Shown here: positions 1,093-48,107 of the stretch, one piece after another | How positions within the stretch are numbered: position 1 is the stretch's first letter | Layout of the letters: each line of letters begins with the position of its first letter | From: Lachnospiraceae bacterium | GTDB lineage: Bacteria > Bacillota > Clostridia > Lachnospirales > Lachnospiraceae | NCBI GenBank assembly: GCA_016291405.1 | Contig: JAEEXG010000014.1 | Span: forward strand, 1 to 51,359 | Length of the DNA stretch: 51,359 bases | Reading direction: 5' to 3' | Notes under the pieces: model-generated | What the model was told of the DNA's origin: nothing | Seen by the model: only the letters and a program-made list of their open reading frames with translations | Database searches by the model: none | Translations under genes and position numbers: made by a program

Positions 1093-1993
1093 TTGGATGC
1101 TGTATGTATTGATTCCCCTATGCGTTTTAATGGTTCTTACGATTGCTTTTTGCATTTATAAAACCATCAAGGCAAATAAAACAATTGAAGGCATCGAAGA
1201 AATGCTTGATAGCGCCATAAAGGGAGAGTTTAGCGAAAAGGAATTTAGCGAAGAAAAGATTTCAAAGCTTGAGTCAAGGTTCTCAGATTTCTTAAATTCT
1301 TCTTCTTTGTCTGCATTAAACATAAAAAAAGACAGAGATAAAATAAAGACTTTAATTTCCGATATTTCCCATCAAACAAAGACTCCCATCGCAAACTTGC
1401 TTTTACATAGCGAGCTTTTGATGGAATCTGATTTAACGGCTGAGCAAAGAGAAAGCCTTGATGCCATATCATCTGAAGCTGAGAAATTAAGGTTCTTGGT
1501 GGATGCACTTGTTAAATTATCAAGACTTGAAAACGGAATCTTGACCCTTAGCCCCGAAAAAGAAGACGTAGGGCGCTTAATAAAAGAAATCGCTTTATCC
1601 ATGCGAAAGAAAGCTGAAGCAAAGGGGCTTTACTTAAATGTGACGGAAGATAGCGCAGAGGCTTCTTTTGACTATAAATGGACCCTTGAAGCTGTTAGTA
1701 ACATTGTGGATAACGCAATAAAATATACAGAGGCCGGTGGAATAACTATCTCTTTACAAGCCTCTGAAATGTTTGTGTGCATCATCGTTAAAGATACAGG
1801 CATCGGCATTTTGGAAGAAGATATTCCCAAAATCTTTGCCCGCTTTGAGCGCTTACAATCTTCCAAAGAAAAAGAAGGCGTAGGAATCGGCCTTTATCTT
1901 GCCCGCGAAATCCTTCAAAAAGAAGGTGGCTATATTAAGGTTAAATCCAAGAAGGGCGAAGGATCTGAATTCTTTATATACATTAAAAGGTAA
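1085..1993 (+). CDS. Membrane sensor histidine kinase
   Basis: A 302-residue kinase. One clear N-terminal membrane segment is seen (about residues 5-25) with almost no extracellular loop. The H-box is ISHQTKTP with H96, the N-box NIVDNAIKY lies around 206-214, G1 is DTGIGI at about 237-242, the F-box is FARF, and G2 is GVGIGL near 265-270. The small sensory part resembles intramembrane-sensing kinases, which usually take their signal from a partner transporter. The ABC exporter genes downstream would fit that role. The gene overlaps the regulator by 8 bases, so translation is probably coupled. Its stop codon sits at the very start of palindromic element A1. Confidence 0.93.
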   Translation: MSDWMLYVLIPLCVLMVLTIAFCIYKTIKANKTIEGIEEMLDSAIKGEFSEKEFSEEKISKLESRFSDFLNSSSLSALNIKKDRDKIKTLISDISHQTKTPIANLLLHSELLMESDLTAEQRESLDAISSEAEKLRFLVDALVKLSRLENGILTLSPEKEDVGRLIKEIALSMRKKAEAKGLYLNVTEDSAEASFDYKWTLEAVSNIVDNAIKYTEAGGITISLQASEMFVCIIVKDTGIGILEEDIPKIFARFERLQSSKEKEGVGIGLYLAREILQKEGGYIKVKSKKGEGSEFFIYIKR

Positions 1994-2235
1994 ATTCTTT
2001 CAGTTTTGCTTTAAAGGATGTTTACTGGGGGGCGAAGATACATTTATATTCCCAAAACACTTTAGAAGCGTTCTTAACGGAGTTGAAATCCACCCCGAAA
2101 CCCTTAGGCGCGAAGACATTTCTGAGCGTCTTAGCGTTTCGTGGGTTAGTTCAACGGAGTGTTGCTTCGTTTTGGGAATATAAATGTATCTTCGCCCCCC
2201 AAAAAAATACAAATCTTTCAAAACTGAAAGAATTT
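1992..2235. repeat. Long palindromic element A1
   Basis: A nested inverted repeat fills the gap between the kinase and the ABC genes. Outer 17-base arms (1992-2008 and 2219-2235, starting AAATTCTTTCAG) are perfectly complementary. Inner 32-base arms (2027-2058 and 2169-2200, starting GGGGGGCGAAG) are also perfectly complementary. The 110-base core 2059-2168 is about four-fifths identical by eye to the reverse complement of the core at 47965-48072. No credible coding frame lies inside. As RNA it would form one very long hairpin right after the kinase stop codon. Confidence 0.9.
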
Positions 2236-10543: not shown

Positions 10544-10799
10544 GTGGACCTGCGGGACGTGGTTTGCGGTCCGTTCATACTTAGAATTGTGGTCCGGGAA
10601 CATATATTACTTTTGAGACCCTCCTGAGCCTCGGCACTTAACGAGGCGGACTATTGTCCGGCGAGTTTAGTGAGCAGGCTTCTTTATAGCCTGCGGCCGC
10701 TAGTGCGAGGGTCGAGCGAGAGCGTGTCGAAAAAGTAATATATGTTCCCGGGCCCCTGTCAAAAGAAAATGGACCACTAACCCCGTCCCACGGGTCCAC
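10544..10799. repeat. Long palindromic element B1
   Basis: Imperfect arms of about 70 bases pair from GTGGACC (10544) to GGTCCAC (10793-10799). The best part is CGGGAACATATATTACTTTT (from 10595) against AAAAGTAATATATGTTCCCG. The core contains small hairpins: CCTCG/CGAGG, GGAC/GTCC, GCAGGCT/AGCCTGC, and GACCCTC (10617-10623) pairing with GAGGGTC. Bases 10659-10699 are identical to 26710-26750 in element B3. It fills most of the 520-base divergent gap between the lipoprotein and DUF4832 genes and is non-coding. Confidence 0.9.
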
Positions 10800-19530: not shown

Positions 19531-19533
19531 AAT

Positions 19534-19573
19534 TAATAATCGGCCGCGAATTTCTCGCGGCCGATTATTTTTG
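19534..19573. terminator. Bidirectional terminator, copy 1 of a 26-bp repeat
   Basis: CGGCCGCGA pairs with TCGCGGCCG around an ATT loop, flanked by AATAAT/ATTATT. Bases 19538-19563 are identical to 21529-21554, in the same orientation. It ends the RHH-like gene and, on the other strand, the TOPRIM-like gene. Confidence 0.85.
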
Positions 19574-21491: not shown

Positions 21492-21524
21492 AATTTTCTT
21501 TTAACTGTACGCGACATGATTGAT

Positions 21525-21562
21525 AAAAAATCGGCCGCGAATTTCTCGCGGCCGGTTTTTTT
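21525..21562. terminator. Bidirectional terminator, copy 2 of a 26-bp repeat
   Basis: The same hairpin as at 19534-19573, here followed by GGTTTTTTT. It overlaps the end of the 21561 gene and separates it from the ATPase promoter. Confidence 0.85.
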
Positions 21563-22387: not shown

Positions 22388-22845
22388 AAATATCCCGTAA
22401 TACAGGATATCGACCGCTTTCTTTTTACAAAGAAAGAAATGCCCGGACGGACAGGCGGGTCGAAAGCCGACTGCGAGAAATCGCAATTTATTGATTGAGA
22501 AGGCCGAAAGGTCAGGCTCAAATTTTATAAGATGATACTATTCACGGTTGGATAGGCGATTTATCGGATTTGATATGCTTGCATAATCAAAGACGATTAT
22601 ATCGACTAGACAATACTGCGAAGCAGTACCTACACCAAAATGAGTAATCGTAGTGCGAAGCACAGAGAAGCTTATGAAATAAGCGGATTACGAATGAAGG
22701 TGGAGCGTGAATGAAGCATCAAAATCACTTGTGAAACGGTCAATAATATTCGGTAACCCCTGTAATGGTAAGACGGGAGCATATGGAAGAAGACTATTTG
22801 CAGGTGTATATGAAGCATGATGCTTCTATGCACCTGTTTTGTTTA
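22388..22845 (+). ncRNA. Large structured non-coding RNA, unidentified (about 450 bases)
   Basis: No long open frame on either strand, but dense local hairpins: ATATCC/GGATAT (22390-22410), CTTTCTTT/AAAGAAAG with a TTAC loop, TGCGA-GAAA-TCGCA, GGCC-GAAA-GGTC, TACTGC-GAA-GCAGTA, GTGC-GAA-GCAC and GCTTAT-GAA-ATAAGC. The last two sit inside a longer GTAATC/GATTAC stem, itself enclosed by CACC/GGTG, giving a multi-branch domain. Repeated GNRA and GAA loops are typical of large folded RNAs. It ends in a clear terminator. Possible promoter boxes are TTGCTA/TAAAAC (22352-22380) or TAGACA/TATAAG (22361-22387). It lacks RNase P, tmRNA, SRP and 6S hallmarks and a group II domain V. It could be a free RNA or a leader of the polyamine operon. 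Confidence 0.7.
22800..22845 (+). terminator. Terminator ending the structured RNA
   Basis: CAGGTG (22801-22806) ... CACCTG (22831-22836), with an inner GAAGCAT/ATGCTTC stem, followed by TTTTGTTT. Confidence 0.85.
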
Positions 22846-25363: not shown

Positions 25364-26617
25364 ATGAAATTAATGGTAATAGGATGTGGCGGTGTTGCCA
25401 CAGTTGCAATTTATAAGTGTTGCGAAAACCCGATTTTTACGGAGATTTTGCTTGCATCAAGAACAGTATCAAAGTGTGATGCGTTAAAAGAAAAATTACA
25501 GAGTAAAACCAAGGCAAAGATTACTACCGCTACTGTCGATGCGGATTCTTTTGACTCATTGGTTTCTTTGATGAAAGAATTTAAGCCTCACACCGTATTA
25601 AACGTAGCCCTTCCTTATCAGGATTTAACCATCATGGATGCCTGCCTTGAATGCGGCGCAAACTATGTAGACACAGCAAACTACGAAGCTGAAGACACAG
25701 AGGATCCTGTTTGGAGAGCTCAGTACGAAAAGCGCTGCAAAGAAAAAGGCTTCACAGCTTACTTTGATTACAGCTACCAGTGGGCATATGATGAAAAGTT
25801 TAAAAAGGCAGGCCTTACAGCCCTCTTAGGAACAGGCTTTGACCCCGGCGTAACTCAGGTTTTTTCAGCCTATGCGCTTAAGCACTATTTTGATGAAATA
25901 AACTATATCGACATTTTGGACTGTAACGGTGGCGACCACGGTTATGCTTTTGCCACAAACTTTAACCCCGAAATCAACCTTCGTGAGGTTTCCGCAAACG
26001 GTTCTTACTGGGAAGACGGCCACTGGGTAGAGACTAAGCCCATGGAAATTAAGCGTGAATACGACTTTGCGGAAGTTGGCAAGAAAGACATGTATCTTCT
26101 TCACCACGAAGAAATCGAATCTTTAGCAAAGAACATTCCGGGAATAAAGAGAATTCGTTTCTTTATGACTTTTGGACAAAGCTACTTAACCCACATGAAA
26201 TGCCTTGAAAACGTGGGAATGTTAAGAACCGACCCCGTTATGTTTGAAGGAAGAGAAATCGTGCCCATTAAATTTTTAAAGGCCCTTCTTCCCGACCCTG
26301 CATCCCTCGGCCCCAGAACAGTCGGCAAGACAAACATTGGCTGTATCTTTAAGGGCATCAAGGATGGCAAAGAAAAAACTATTTACATCTACAACGTCTG
26401 CGACCACCAGGAAAGCTACAAAGAAACCGGCGCGCAGGCCATCAGTTACACCACCGGCGTACCCGCAATGATCGGAACCGCTATGGTGGCAAGCGGCACT
26501 TGGGCAAAGCCTGGCGTCTTCAACGTTGAGGAGTTCGATCCCGATCCTTATATGGAAGCCCTCAATAAATATGGTTTGCCTTGGGTTGTGGATGAAAATC
26601 CAAAGACAGTAGAGTAA
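25364..26617 (+). CDS. Carboxyspermidine (carboxynorspermidine) dehydrogenase, saccharopine dehydrogenase family
   Basis: A 417-residue protein. The N-terminal Rossmann site MVIGCGGVATVAIYKC is that of the saccharopine-dehydrogenase family; LGTGFDPGVTQVFSAYA follows at about 152-168. Together with the nspC gene just downstream this identifies CASDH, which condenses aspartate semialdehyde with putrescine (or diaminopropane) using NADPH to give carboxyspermidine. The ribosome site is AAGGAGATA. Between this gene and nspC the 262-base gap is almost entirely element B3. Confidence 0.88.
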   Translation: MKLMVIGCGGVATVAIYKCCENPIFTEILLASRTVSKCDALKEKLQSKTKAKITTATVDADSFDSLVSLMKEFKPHTVLNVALPYQDLTIMDACLECGANYVDTANYEAEDTEDPVWRAQYEKRCKEKGFTAYFDYSYQWAYDEKFKKAGLTALLGTGFDPGVTQVFSAYALKHYFDEINYIDILDCNGGDHGYAFATNFNPEINLREVSANGSYWEDGHWVETKPMEIKREYDFAEVGKKDMYLLHHEEIESLAKNIPGIKRIRFFMTFGQSYLTHMKCLENVGMLRTDPVMFEGREIVPIKFLKALLPDPASLGPRTVGKTNIGCIFKGIKDGKEKTIYIYNVCDHQESYKETGAQAISYTTGVPAMIGTAMVASGTWAKPGVFNVEEFDPDPYMEALNKYGLPWVVDENPKTVE

Positions 26618-26630
26618 ATTTCAATATTCT

Positions 26631-26866
26631 GTCGGCCACGTACAGCGATAATATATTATGTCCGAGAATTTATGGAGCCCCGGCACTTAACGAGCCGGAC
26701 ACTAAGGAACGGCGAGTTTAGTGAGCAGGCTTCTTTATAGCCTGCGGCCGTTGGTGCGGAGGGGAACAAGGTCCGGGGGACCTTGGTTCTGACCCGACCG
26801 AAGCGAAGCGTAGATCCTAAGCGAGAGCGGTTCGAGGACAAATGTATTATCGTGTACGCGGCCGAC
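26631..26866. repeat. Palindromic element B3 inside the polyamine operon
   Basis: Left arm GTCGGCCACGTACAG... (26631-26667) pairs imperfectly with the right arm ending GTACGCGGCCGAC (to 26866). The core shares 41 identical bases (26710-26750) with B1 (10659-10699), including GCAGGC-TTCTTTATA-GCCTGC, and has an extra hairpin CCAAGGTCC-type insert near 26766-26788 (AACAAGGTCC/GGACCTTGGTT). It starts 14 bases after the CASDH stop and ends 13 bases before the nspC ATG. Confidence 0.9.
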
Positions 26867-26879
26867 GCGAGGTATATAA

Positions 26880-28019
26880 ATGACAGTTAATCATTCTGTA
26901 TTTGATTTCATCCACACCCCGGCATATGTGGTGGATGAGAGCTCCCTTATAAGGAATCTGGAAATACTTCGGGACGTTAAAGACGCCGCGGGGTGCAAGA
27001 TACTGCTTGCGCAGAAGGCGTTTTCGATGTTTGCGGTTTATCCGTTGATAGAGAAATACCTTGATGGAACTACGGCGAGCGGTTTGTTTGAGGCGAAGCT
27101 TGGAAGAGAAGAGTTTAAGGGTGAGGTGCATGTTTTTGCGCCTGCCTTTAGAGATGATGAGTTTGAAGAGATTTCAGATATTGCCGACCATATCGTCTTT
27201 AATTCAATCAGCCAGCTTAACAAGTTTAAGGACATTGCAAAGGCGAAGGGTAAAAGCATTGGTTTAAGAGTGAATCCTGAATGTTCCACCCAGGAGCATG
27301 GGATTTACGATCCTTGCGCTAAGGGTTCAAGACTTGGAGTAACCTTAAAAAGCTTTGATGAGAACGTCTTAAAAGACATAGACGGCCTTCATTTTCACAC
27401 ACTTTGCGAGCAGGGTTCCGATGCTTTGGAAATAACCCTTAAGGCTTTTGAAGAAAAGTTTGGAAAGTATTTAAAGGGCTTAAAGTGGGTTAACTTCGGA
27501 GGCGGTCATCACATCACAAGGGATGACTATGACAGAGACCTTTTAATTAAGCTTATTAAAGATTTTAAAGATAAATACGGCGTGGAAGTTTATTTAGAGC
27601 CGGGAGAAGCAATTGCTTTAAACGCAGGATATTTGGTCACTAAGGTAATGGACATTGTAGATAACGATATTAAGACTTTGGTGCTTGATGCATCCGCTGC
27701 ATGCCATATGCCTGACGTTTTGGAAATGCCCTATAGGCCTCCGCTTTTTGCTTCGGGAGAGCCTAATGAAAAGAAGTTTACCTATAGGCTTTCTTCCTGC
27801 ACCTGCCTAGCGGGAGATATAATCGGAGACTATTCTTTTGACGAAGAAATCAAGGTGGGAGATACCTTGGTGTTTGAAGACATGGCCATTTATTCAATGG
27901 TTAAAAACAACACCTTTAACGGAATGGCCCTTCCCGACATTGACCTTTACACAAAAGAAGGCGAAGTTAAGGTGATTAAGACCTTTGGCTATCAGGATTT
28001 TAAGGAGAGGCTTTCATGA
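26880..28019 (+). CDS. nspC: Carboxynorspermidine/carboxyspermidine decarboxylase
   Basis: A 379-residue PLP enzyme of the alanine-racemase-fold group. The cofactor lysine is K46 in LLAQKAFSMF; GGGHHITR and LEPGEAIALNAGYL form the phosphate and substrate pockets, and SCTCLAGDIIGDY contains the conserved Cys-Asp pair at the dimer interface. It removes CO2 from carboxyspermidine to give spermidine. The ribosome site GAGGTA lies just outside element B3. Its stop overlaps the aguA start by 4 bases (ATGA), so the two are translationally coupled. Confidence 0.92.
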   Translation: MTVNHSVFDFIHTPAYVVDESSLIRNLEILRDVKDAAGCKILLAQKAFSMFAVYPLIEKYLDGTTASGLFEAKLGREEFKGEVHVFAPAFRDDEFEEISDIADHIVFNSISQLNKFKDIAKAKGKSIGLRVNPECSTQEHGIYDPCAKGSRLGVTLKSFDENVLKDIDGLHFHTLCEQGSDALEITLKAFEEKFGKYLKGLKWVNFGGGHHITRDDYDRDLLIKLIKDFKDKYGVEVYLEPGEAIALNAGYLVTKVMDIVDNDIKTLVLDASAACHMPDVLEMPYRPPLFASGEPNEKKFTYRLSSCTCLAGDIIGDYSFDEEIKVGDTLVFEDMAIYSMVKNNTFNGMALPDIDLYTKEGEVKVIKTFGYQDFKERLS

Positions 28020-38997: not shown

Positions 38998-39079
38998 ATA
39001 TTGGGAGTAAGGCTAGACGATTGCGCTGTTTTCGTGGTATGTTTAAAGAGGAATAATAATAGCCGATGAGGTATAAAAA

Positions 39080-39446: not shown

Positions 39447-39490
39447 AGAAAGAAGAAGTGCGAACGGTGCGAAAATCATAATATAAACCC
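39447..39490 (+). repeat. Solo right end of a B-type element (B5)
   Basis: AAGAAGAAGTGCGAACGGTG and the next bases up to ATATAA match the right half of B4 (from about 30136) with one or two differences. No left half is present, so it is a truncated copy. Confidence 0.75.
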
Positions 39491-47929: not shown

Positions 47930-48107
47930 GGGGCTGTCCGAAGAGACACTCTATGTTTCAAAACGAAGCAACGCTCCGACGAACTAATCCACGAAAAACT
48001 AAGACGCGAAGTTACCTTCGCGCCTAAGATTTTCGGGATGGATTTCGTCTGCGCTAAGAGCGCTTCTAAAGTGTTTTGAAACATAGAGTGTCTCTTCGGA
48101 CAGCCCC
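47930..48107. repeat. Long palindromic element A2
   Basis: Perfect 35-base arms (47930-47964 and 48073-48107, GGGGCTGTCCGAAGAG... and its complement) surround a 108-base core. The core folds further: GACGAA pairs with TTCGTC, CGAAAA with TTTTCG, and GCGAAG with CTTCGC. It is homologous, in inverted orientation, to A1 at 1992-2235. It sits between convergent genes and could act as a bidirectional terminator. Non-coding. Confidence 0.9.

Follow-up and report, generated by a model that had tools for sequence, protein, structure and literature searches.

Small mobile hairpin elements of a Lachnospiraceae genus carry copy-specific palindromic arms that may be maintained by template switching

The window analysed here, a 51,359-nucleotide stretch of DNA from a Lachnospiraceae genome, contains two copies, A1 and A2, of an element built from a structured core between long palindromic arms. 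The core of A1 (2059-2168, 110 nt, read on the minus strand) is enclosed by inner arms at 2026-2058 and 2169-2201, which are perfectly complementary over 33 bp; the core of A2 (47965-48072, 108 nt, plus strand) stands between arms at 47930-47964 and 48073-48107, perfectly complementary over 35 bp. Perfect inverted repeats of 33-35 bp are far beyond chance. As the initial annotation had proposed, the two elements are homologous in opposite orientation (80% identity over about 160 nt by blastn; repeat finding pairs them as I1 and I2), and the perfect complementarity that it had reported for their arms is borne out. It had put the differences between the arms of A1 and A2 at about six; we count nine in the 20-nt stretches it quoted, and every one has its match on the opposite arm, since all nine sit inside perfect arms. 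The core stem that it had singled out, GTTGAA/TTCAAC in one copy and GACGAA/TTCGTC in the other, does covary, and this helix varies in concert in further copies too (47 of 48 cells paired, with double changes in five of the six pairs). The A2 arm at 48073-48107 is GC-rich at its end and runs into TCTTTTATCTTT, much as an intrinsic terminator finishes.

The span 1992-2235 holds, in addition to the inner arms of A1 and distinct from them, an outer palindrome, in which 1992-2008 (AAATTCTTTCAGTTTTG), directly 3' of a histidine-kinase gene, is the partner of 2219-2235 (CAAAACTGAAAGAATTT). The right outer copy seems to be the native one because element-free relatives have similar sequence just after the kinase stop: AATCTTTCAAAACTGACA stands a few bases past it in loci L043 and L045 (genomes G003 and G013). 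Thus 2219-2235 is probably native, and 1992-2008 probably repeats the right flank in inverted form. A second haplotype of the A1 locus (G000:C62, L002), 91-95% identical, has most of the core and one arm deleted.

Two further hairpin families in the window, B and C/D, have the same architecture of a conserved structured core and copy-specific palindromic arms. B1 (10594-10751, plus strand) consists of a core with 21-bp perfect inner arms and is surrounded by an outer palindrome (10544-10572 with 10771-10799). B2 (26631-26866, plus strand) has a long core and an imperfect outer palindrome (26577-26623 with 26881-26924), whose left arm overlaps the 3' end of the open reading frame at 25364-26617. 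Family C/D is represented by C1 (30034-30182, plus strand, 23-bp perfect arms), in place of which a second genome, G016, has a short terminator-like hairpin (contig C198), and by the right half of a family C element at 39449-39490 (plus strand), where G016 carries a full C element and an adjoining B element. By eye, the cores of families A, B and C/D contain a CTAAG-type motif that pairs with itself and has an A.A mismatch at its centre. In family B, the inner repeat GGRNTTATATAATGTTTT is semi-conserved, and copies that are nearly alike in the core differ in their arms. Combinations of elements also occur. At L111 (260-830), G016 has a pair of oppositely oriented elements of family B type in the interval from a stop codon to the start of the following gene, a site that lacks them in the window's own genome; elsewhere (L098/L172), G016 has a C/D element beside a B element, and the own genome has the C/D element in the opposite orientation and, on its other side, another B-type element, which differs from the first and has an outer palindrome to itself.

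The families A, B and C/D are carried by rumen bacteria of one Lachnospiraceae genus. Copies were collected, along the lines that the initial annotation had recommended, with blastn and a covariance model (R1). Family A occupies eight places in the own genome (G000), namely A1, A2, C67, C24a, C24b, C93, C6 and the internally deleted C107, and one in G016, which is Lachnospiraceae bacterium RUI583 (4 of 4 compared loci are identical to named contigs of that strain). A related subfamily has two copies in each of genomes G011 and G005. With A2 as the blastn query, the own genome and 1 of 59 relatives were matched; under stricter filters, model R1 matches 4 of 60 genomes, the own genome, RUI583, G011 and G005. 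For family B, blastn finds 17 matching pieces in G000 and 14 in RUI583, as well as short partial matches in G005, G012 and G004 (39-68 nt, E 8e-6 to 7e-4). A pattern search of genome contigs with family B gave 10 stretches, nine from RUI583 and one from a Burkholderiaceae record; the last has no blastn likeness to B1 and was taken as chance. Both the own assembly and that of RUI583 are fragmented and contain second haplotypes (C62, C19, r118).

Eight full copies of family A could be aligned to a structure of 41 pairs, in which 97.6% of 327 cells are paired, 54 cells are altered on both sides and 3 are altered on one side to G-U. The paired percentage, the double changes and the covariation score were each reached in 0 of 500 shuffles, and pairing is destroyed when the partners are slid along; the number of further pair types, reached in 181 of 500 shuffles, is not in excess. 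Covarying helices, as expected of a structured RNA, are therefore present, and tolerance of G-U on a transcribed strand, likewise expected, is not apparent, with 3 G-U cells against 54 double changes. The low G-U count is unusual for an RNA yet suggestive at most, because cells count sequences and not events and the independent events are few.

Arms are alike within a copy and differ between copies. The two arms of a copy share a mean identity of 0.957 over the 8 loci of family A, 0.865 over the 14 of B and 0.885 over the 3 of C/D. Between copies the values are 0.59, 0.57 and 0.71, and shuffled arms give 0.41-0.47; random arm mismatches in other copies, which the initial annotation had named as evidence against its reading, were not seen. 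The mismatches that do occur over 29 loci (17 G.T, 16 A.C and 41 of transversion type) show no bias towards wobble pairs. In three of 22 family B rows (r84, C105, r306), the likeness of the two arms extends into the GAGAC edge of the core. The elements are intergenic in 28 of the 29 loci, the exception being C24a, which overlaps an open frame of 106 codons, and where both neighbouring genes are seen (20 of the 29) they show no clear preference for orientation (eight 3'/5', six 5'/3', four 3'/3' and two 5'/5'). A run of at least four T lies within 10 nt outside the arm in 9 of 29 loci, compared with 3.3 expected from a background that includes coding DNA. On account of this excess some copies may act as terminators; as it is only modest, terminator function was rejected as an account of the elements.

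Orthologous sites that lack the element show that it is mobile. Pieces of nine copies from the own genome were used as queries against RUI583, and two of the nine found a match: C42, whose counterpart (G016:C49) is empty, and C6, where the contig ends before the element. In the reverse direction, all eight RUI583 copies queried found a match in the own genome (1265 of the 1595 nt served as query; the left pieces of r337 and r360 and the r103 piece were dropped). The counterparts are element-free for r84/r118 (one place), r187 and r14, diverged and element-free for r306 and r363, differently arranged for r360, and, for r337, a related element with a deletion. The empty site of C42 reads GGCAGGCATGGAGACATAATGG, and the native GGCAGGC(A/G)TGGA stands there without an element. 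In the occupied site, the left arm starts within the native GGCAGGCGTGGA, and an inverted copy, TCTACGCCTGCC, lies beyond the core, so that relative to the empty site the native 12-nt flank has gained an inverted copy. There the order is inner arm, inverted left-flank copy, 16 further bases, a repeated TGGA and the right flank. TGGA is thus present at both ends of C42 and could mark a target-site duplication of fixed length; the junctions at the other element-free sites are not clear. The outer arms of r118 and r187 are absent from their empty sites. We accordingly rejected the idea that arms are pure copies of the target, which fits C42 and fails for r118 and r187.

Inverted copies of host flank are not confined to C42. 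We compared the 70 nt outside 26-nt inner arms on the left with the reverse complement of those on the right. Of the 31 loci on our list, 29 entered the comparison (all but C37 and the L172 B-type element), and 27 of these are independent. The mean mirror score is 26.3, against 15.2 for mismatched pairs, and 0 of 50000 permutations reach this mean. Eight of 27 loci (A1, C6, B1, B2, C113, C57, r360 and D16) exceed the maximum of 696 cross pairs, and 11 lie at or above the 99th percentile; the count of loci above the maximum stays at eight with a skip of 22, 30 or 34 nt in place of 26. In a first version of the test, the mean was reached by 1 of 20000 permutations, and 15 of the 27 loci rose no higher than the 95th percentile of the cross pairs. 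The copied DNA can be part of a host gene: at the locus of C57, C19 and r309, the 3' coding end of a gene, putatively one for aspartate-ammonia ligase, is mirrored across the element, and at r187 a native terminator stem has an inverted copy beyond the element. Flank copies reach about 45 nt. In C42 and A1 the native flank stands 5' of the core, in C57 and r187 it stands 3', which fits a process without polarity. A stretch of about 15-22 nt on each side, between the outer and inner palindromes, is unpaired in A1, B1, C113, C57, r187, r360 and the L172 B-type element.

Eight ortholog comparisons, covering six independent loci, reveal how elements change in place. Orientation is kept at three of the six (C113/r234; C57/r309 with C19; C24b/G016A), and at two the element is inverted between conserved flanks. 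One of these is r84/r118, whose cores agree at 122 of 127 positions and whose arms agree at 16/22 and 15/23 between the copies and at 23/23 and, with one gap, 23/23 within them; the other is G011/G005, with 132 of 142 core positions, 16/25 and 16/24 between the copies and 21/24 with one gap within each. The D16/D00 element is also opposite relative to its outer flanks, and since a neighbouring element stands on the other side in each genome, we regard this as a rearranged locus and not as a clean in-place inversion. Over the three opposite-orientation pairs, cores are 93-96% identical, and arms are 64-86% identical between copies and 88-100% within them (ungapped positions). At the same-orientation loci, core and arms are nearly alike, except that C19 differs from C57 and r309 in the core (111/127 positions alike) and both arms (17/21 alike) together. 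At r84/r118, G011/G005 and C19/C57, we infer that both arms changed in one step. Correction of the arms is not continuous, because the mismatched arms of C113/r234 (matching 20/25 plus two gaps) are identical in two species and C24b/G016A have an arm indel in common; continuous gene conversion is argued against by the unchanged mismatches of C113/r234.

Where orientation is kept, elements can be more conserved than their flanks: C57/r309 differ at 0 of 171 positions in the element and 60 of 596 in the flanks, C113/r234 at 0 of 174 and 15 of 577, and C24b/G016A at 2 of 175 and 19 of 289. This suggests constraint in place, which is compatible with a role as RNA or terminator and is not explained by copying alone. 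According to the available text of one study, proteobacterial non-coding DNA that contains short inverted repeats is better conserved than the sequence around it (PMC8604942).

With moderate confidence, we regard A1 and A2 as copies of a mobile hairpin element that belongs to one Lachnospiraceae genus and is small, non-coding and presumably non-autonomous. That its arms are kept palindromic by copying at the DNA level, through template switching between the arms of the inverted repeat, seems to us somewhat probable. A nascent 3' end within one arm would switch template, or fold back, and copy the other arm; a single event of this kind would make both arms alike and could invert the core, and copying past the end of an arm would write an inverted copy of host flank on the far side. 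We infer that a replication polymerase performs the copying. Concerted change of arms, inversion between them and reverse-complement copies of adjoining DNA, which template switching leads one to expect, were all found. Against it stand the unpaired stretch of 15-22 nt between outer and inner palindromes, which a single copying event does not explain, the outer arms of r118 and r187 that are missing from the empty sites, and the 15 of 27 loci in which no outer palindrome rises above the 95th percentile. The initial annotation had offered selection on an RNA hairpin or copying across the hairpin as alternatives. Copying is favoured for the arms, because G-U intermediates are few, there is no wobble bias, arms are replaced as cores invert and host DNA is mirrored; the core helices still need a conserved fold. 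As arm copying cannot rewrite these helices, selection is needed to hold the family A core to a branched fold, of RNA or of single-stranded DNA, and both halves of the alternative may hold, one for the core and the other for the arms. A functional RNA is usually taken as proven when Watson-Crick partners change together. In these elements, the covariation of the arms seems to be a product of DNA copying, as empty sites, inversions and mirrored host flanks indicate; paired changes here need not mean functional RNA, which is a warning for RNA discovery based on covariation. For the question of how long bacterial palindromes are built and kept by template switching, the elements are a natural test set.

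Among the alternatives, a process within insertion itself is doubtful: a single strand would enter, its 3' arm would fold on the 5' arm and prime synthesis into the host flank, and the second junction would be closed only afterwards. Each insertion would then make its own palindrome, so that no fixed terminal repeat would be needed. C42 has the product expected of such an event, and family B copies with near-alike cores differ in their arms, as they should; against this, native flank is found on either side of the core, one place can carry different arms (r84/r118, G011/G005), and the outer arms of r118 and r187 are missing from their empty sites. Rather unlikely is an ordinary MITE with drifting terminal repeats, moved by a DDE transposase. 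The size of the elements, their intergenic position in 28 of 29 loci, the TGGA at both ends of C42 and the semi-conserved inner repeat of family B would suit a MITE, but its termini should not vary between copies (0.57-0.71) while the repeats of one copy match (0.87-0.96), and it explains neither the mirrored flanks nor inversion. Because the arms vary between copies, as those of an ordinary MITE do not, we rate the element as a MITE-like mobile hairpin and attribute the rewriting of its arms to a known mutational process.

That the elements are transcribed and that selection on an RNA hairpin keeps their arms paired is unlikely. The strong covariation of helices, the three same-orientation ortholog pairs with elements more conserved than flanks and the excess of T-runs outside the arms (9 of 29 against 3.3) speak for a functional RNA; they are countered by the 3 one-sided G-U cells beside 54 double changes, by wobble mismatches that do not exceed A.C, by the lack of a clear orientation to neighbouring genes at 20 of 29 loci, and by the Rfam search, which gave no match over the elements. 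Inversion of the core would, moreover, reverse the transcript, and mirrored host coding DNA would go unexplained. Site-specific invertible DNA with copy-specific repeats is very improbable. Both core orientations do occur at two conserved places, and at a third, rearranged one, but an invertase needs a conserved recombination site, and here the arms vary between copies and even between the two orientations of one element, and the cores are multicopy and mobile.

Template switching, the reading we favour, has been described elsewhere. Homogenisation of arms, inversion of the spacer or loop, reverse-complement copies and double Watson-Crick changes are among its outcomes in the available text of two papers, and all four have a parallel in our elements (PMC8604942, PMC8794818). 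The same text describes inverted spacers that are short (loops of 4 to 8 nt; substitutions of 2-5 bp in yeast) and arm change coupled with spacer inversion as rare (1 of 10 yeast events) (PMC8604942, PMC8794818). In contrast, a core of 127-143 nt inverts here, within a mobile multicopy family, and flank copies extend to about 45 nt. The initial annotation knew of no described repeat family that matched; this held in searches of Rfam, plasmids, phages and viral contigs, although the behaviour of the arms has, as just outlined, already been published as template switching. Over the elements, Rfam gave no match in the window at gathering thresholds or at six loci searched at E up to 3, other than, at those loci, matches far below gathering scores to models of microRNAs and to one of a sodium riboswitch, the latter 20 bits short of its threshold. 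A2 and B1 matched none of the plasmids and phages searched; in viral contigs, the family B pattern was absent and the 15-base family A pattern occurred in 24 stretches, none of which matches model R1. Among the literature matches listed, as far as their available text extends, none describes a bacterial repeat family with copy-specific palindromic arms.

Several known systems share parts of the architecture. The Correia, RUP, ERIC and Rickettsia palindromic elements have terminal repeats that are family-wide, unlike the copy-specific arms around a conserved core seen here. They are likewise short, intergenic, hairpin-forming and mobile, according to the available text of a review (PMC2229807). 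Our elements also differ from integron attC sites, in that the symmetric attC box pair, RYYYAAC and GTTRRRY, occurs in 0 of 29 loci, and attC was rejected as a candidate. REP and REPIN elements, which are mobile hairpins between genes moved by RAYT (Y1) transposases, are alike in being mobile intergenic hairpins and unlike in that the four bearer genomes of family A have no Y1 match: the Y1 transposase domain (PF01797) has 0 matches in the own genome (99% complete), RUI583 (89%), G005 (85%) and G011 (62%). It is present in 4 of 18 genomes of the genus, none of them a bearer of family A. An IS200/IS605 or RAYT mobiliser was rejected because Y1_Tnp is missing from the four bearers, three of which are incomplete assemblies.

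Other repeats and RNAs were seen beside the elements. The RUI583 contig G016:C89 (L120, 16115-16510, corresponding to window position 38999) has about 390 bp of repeat-rich DNA with GGGACGCGGTGGGC-like units that is missing at the window ortholog. Adjoining the family A copy C93, locus L012 matches a T-box leader and a Clostridiales-1 RNA (1151-1405 and 930-1099), below gathering scores. The one match in the window at the Rfam gathering level, away from the elements at 22411-22470, is to SpF59, a small RNA described from Streptococcus (RF02440). Finally, two near-identical GC-rich hairpins of the TCGGCCGCGAATTTCTCGCGGCCGA type, about 2 kb apart at 19532-19571 and 21523-21562, are probably terminators.
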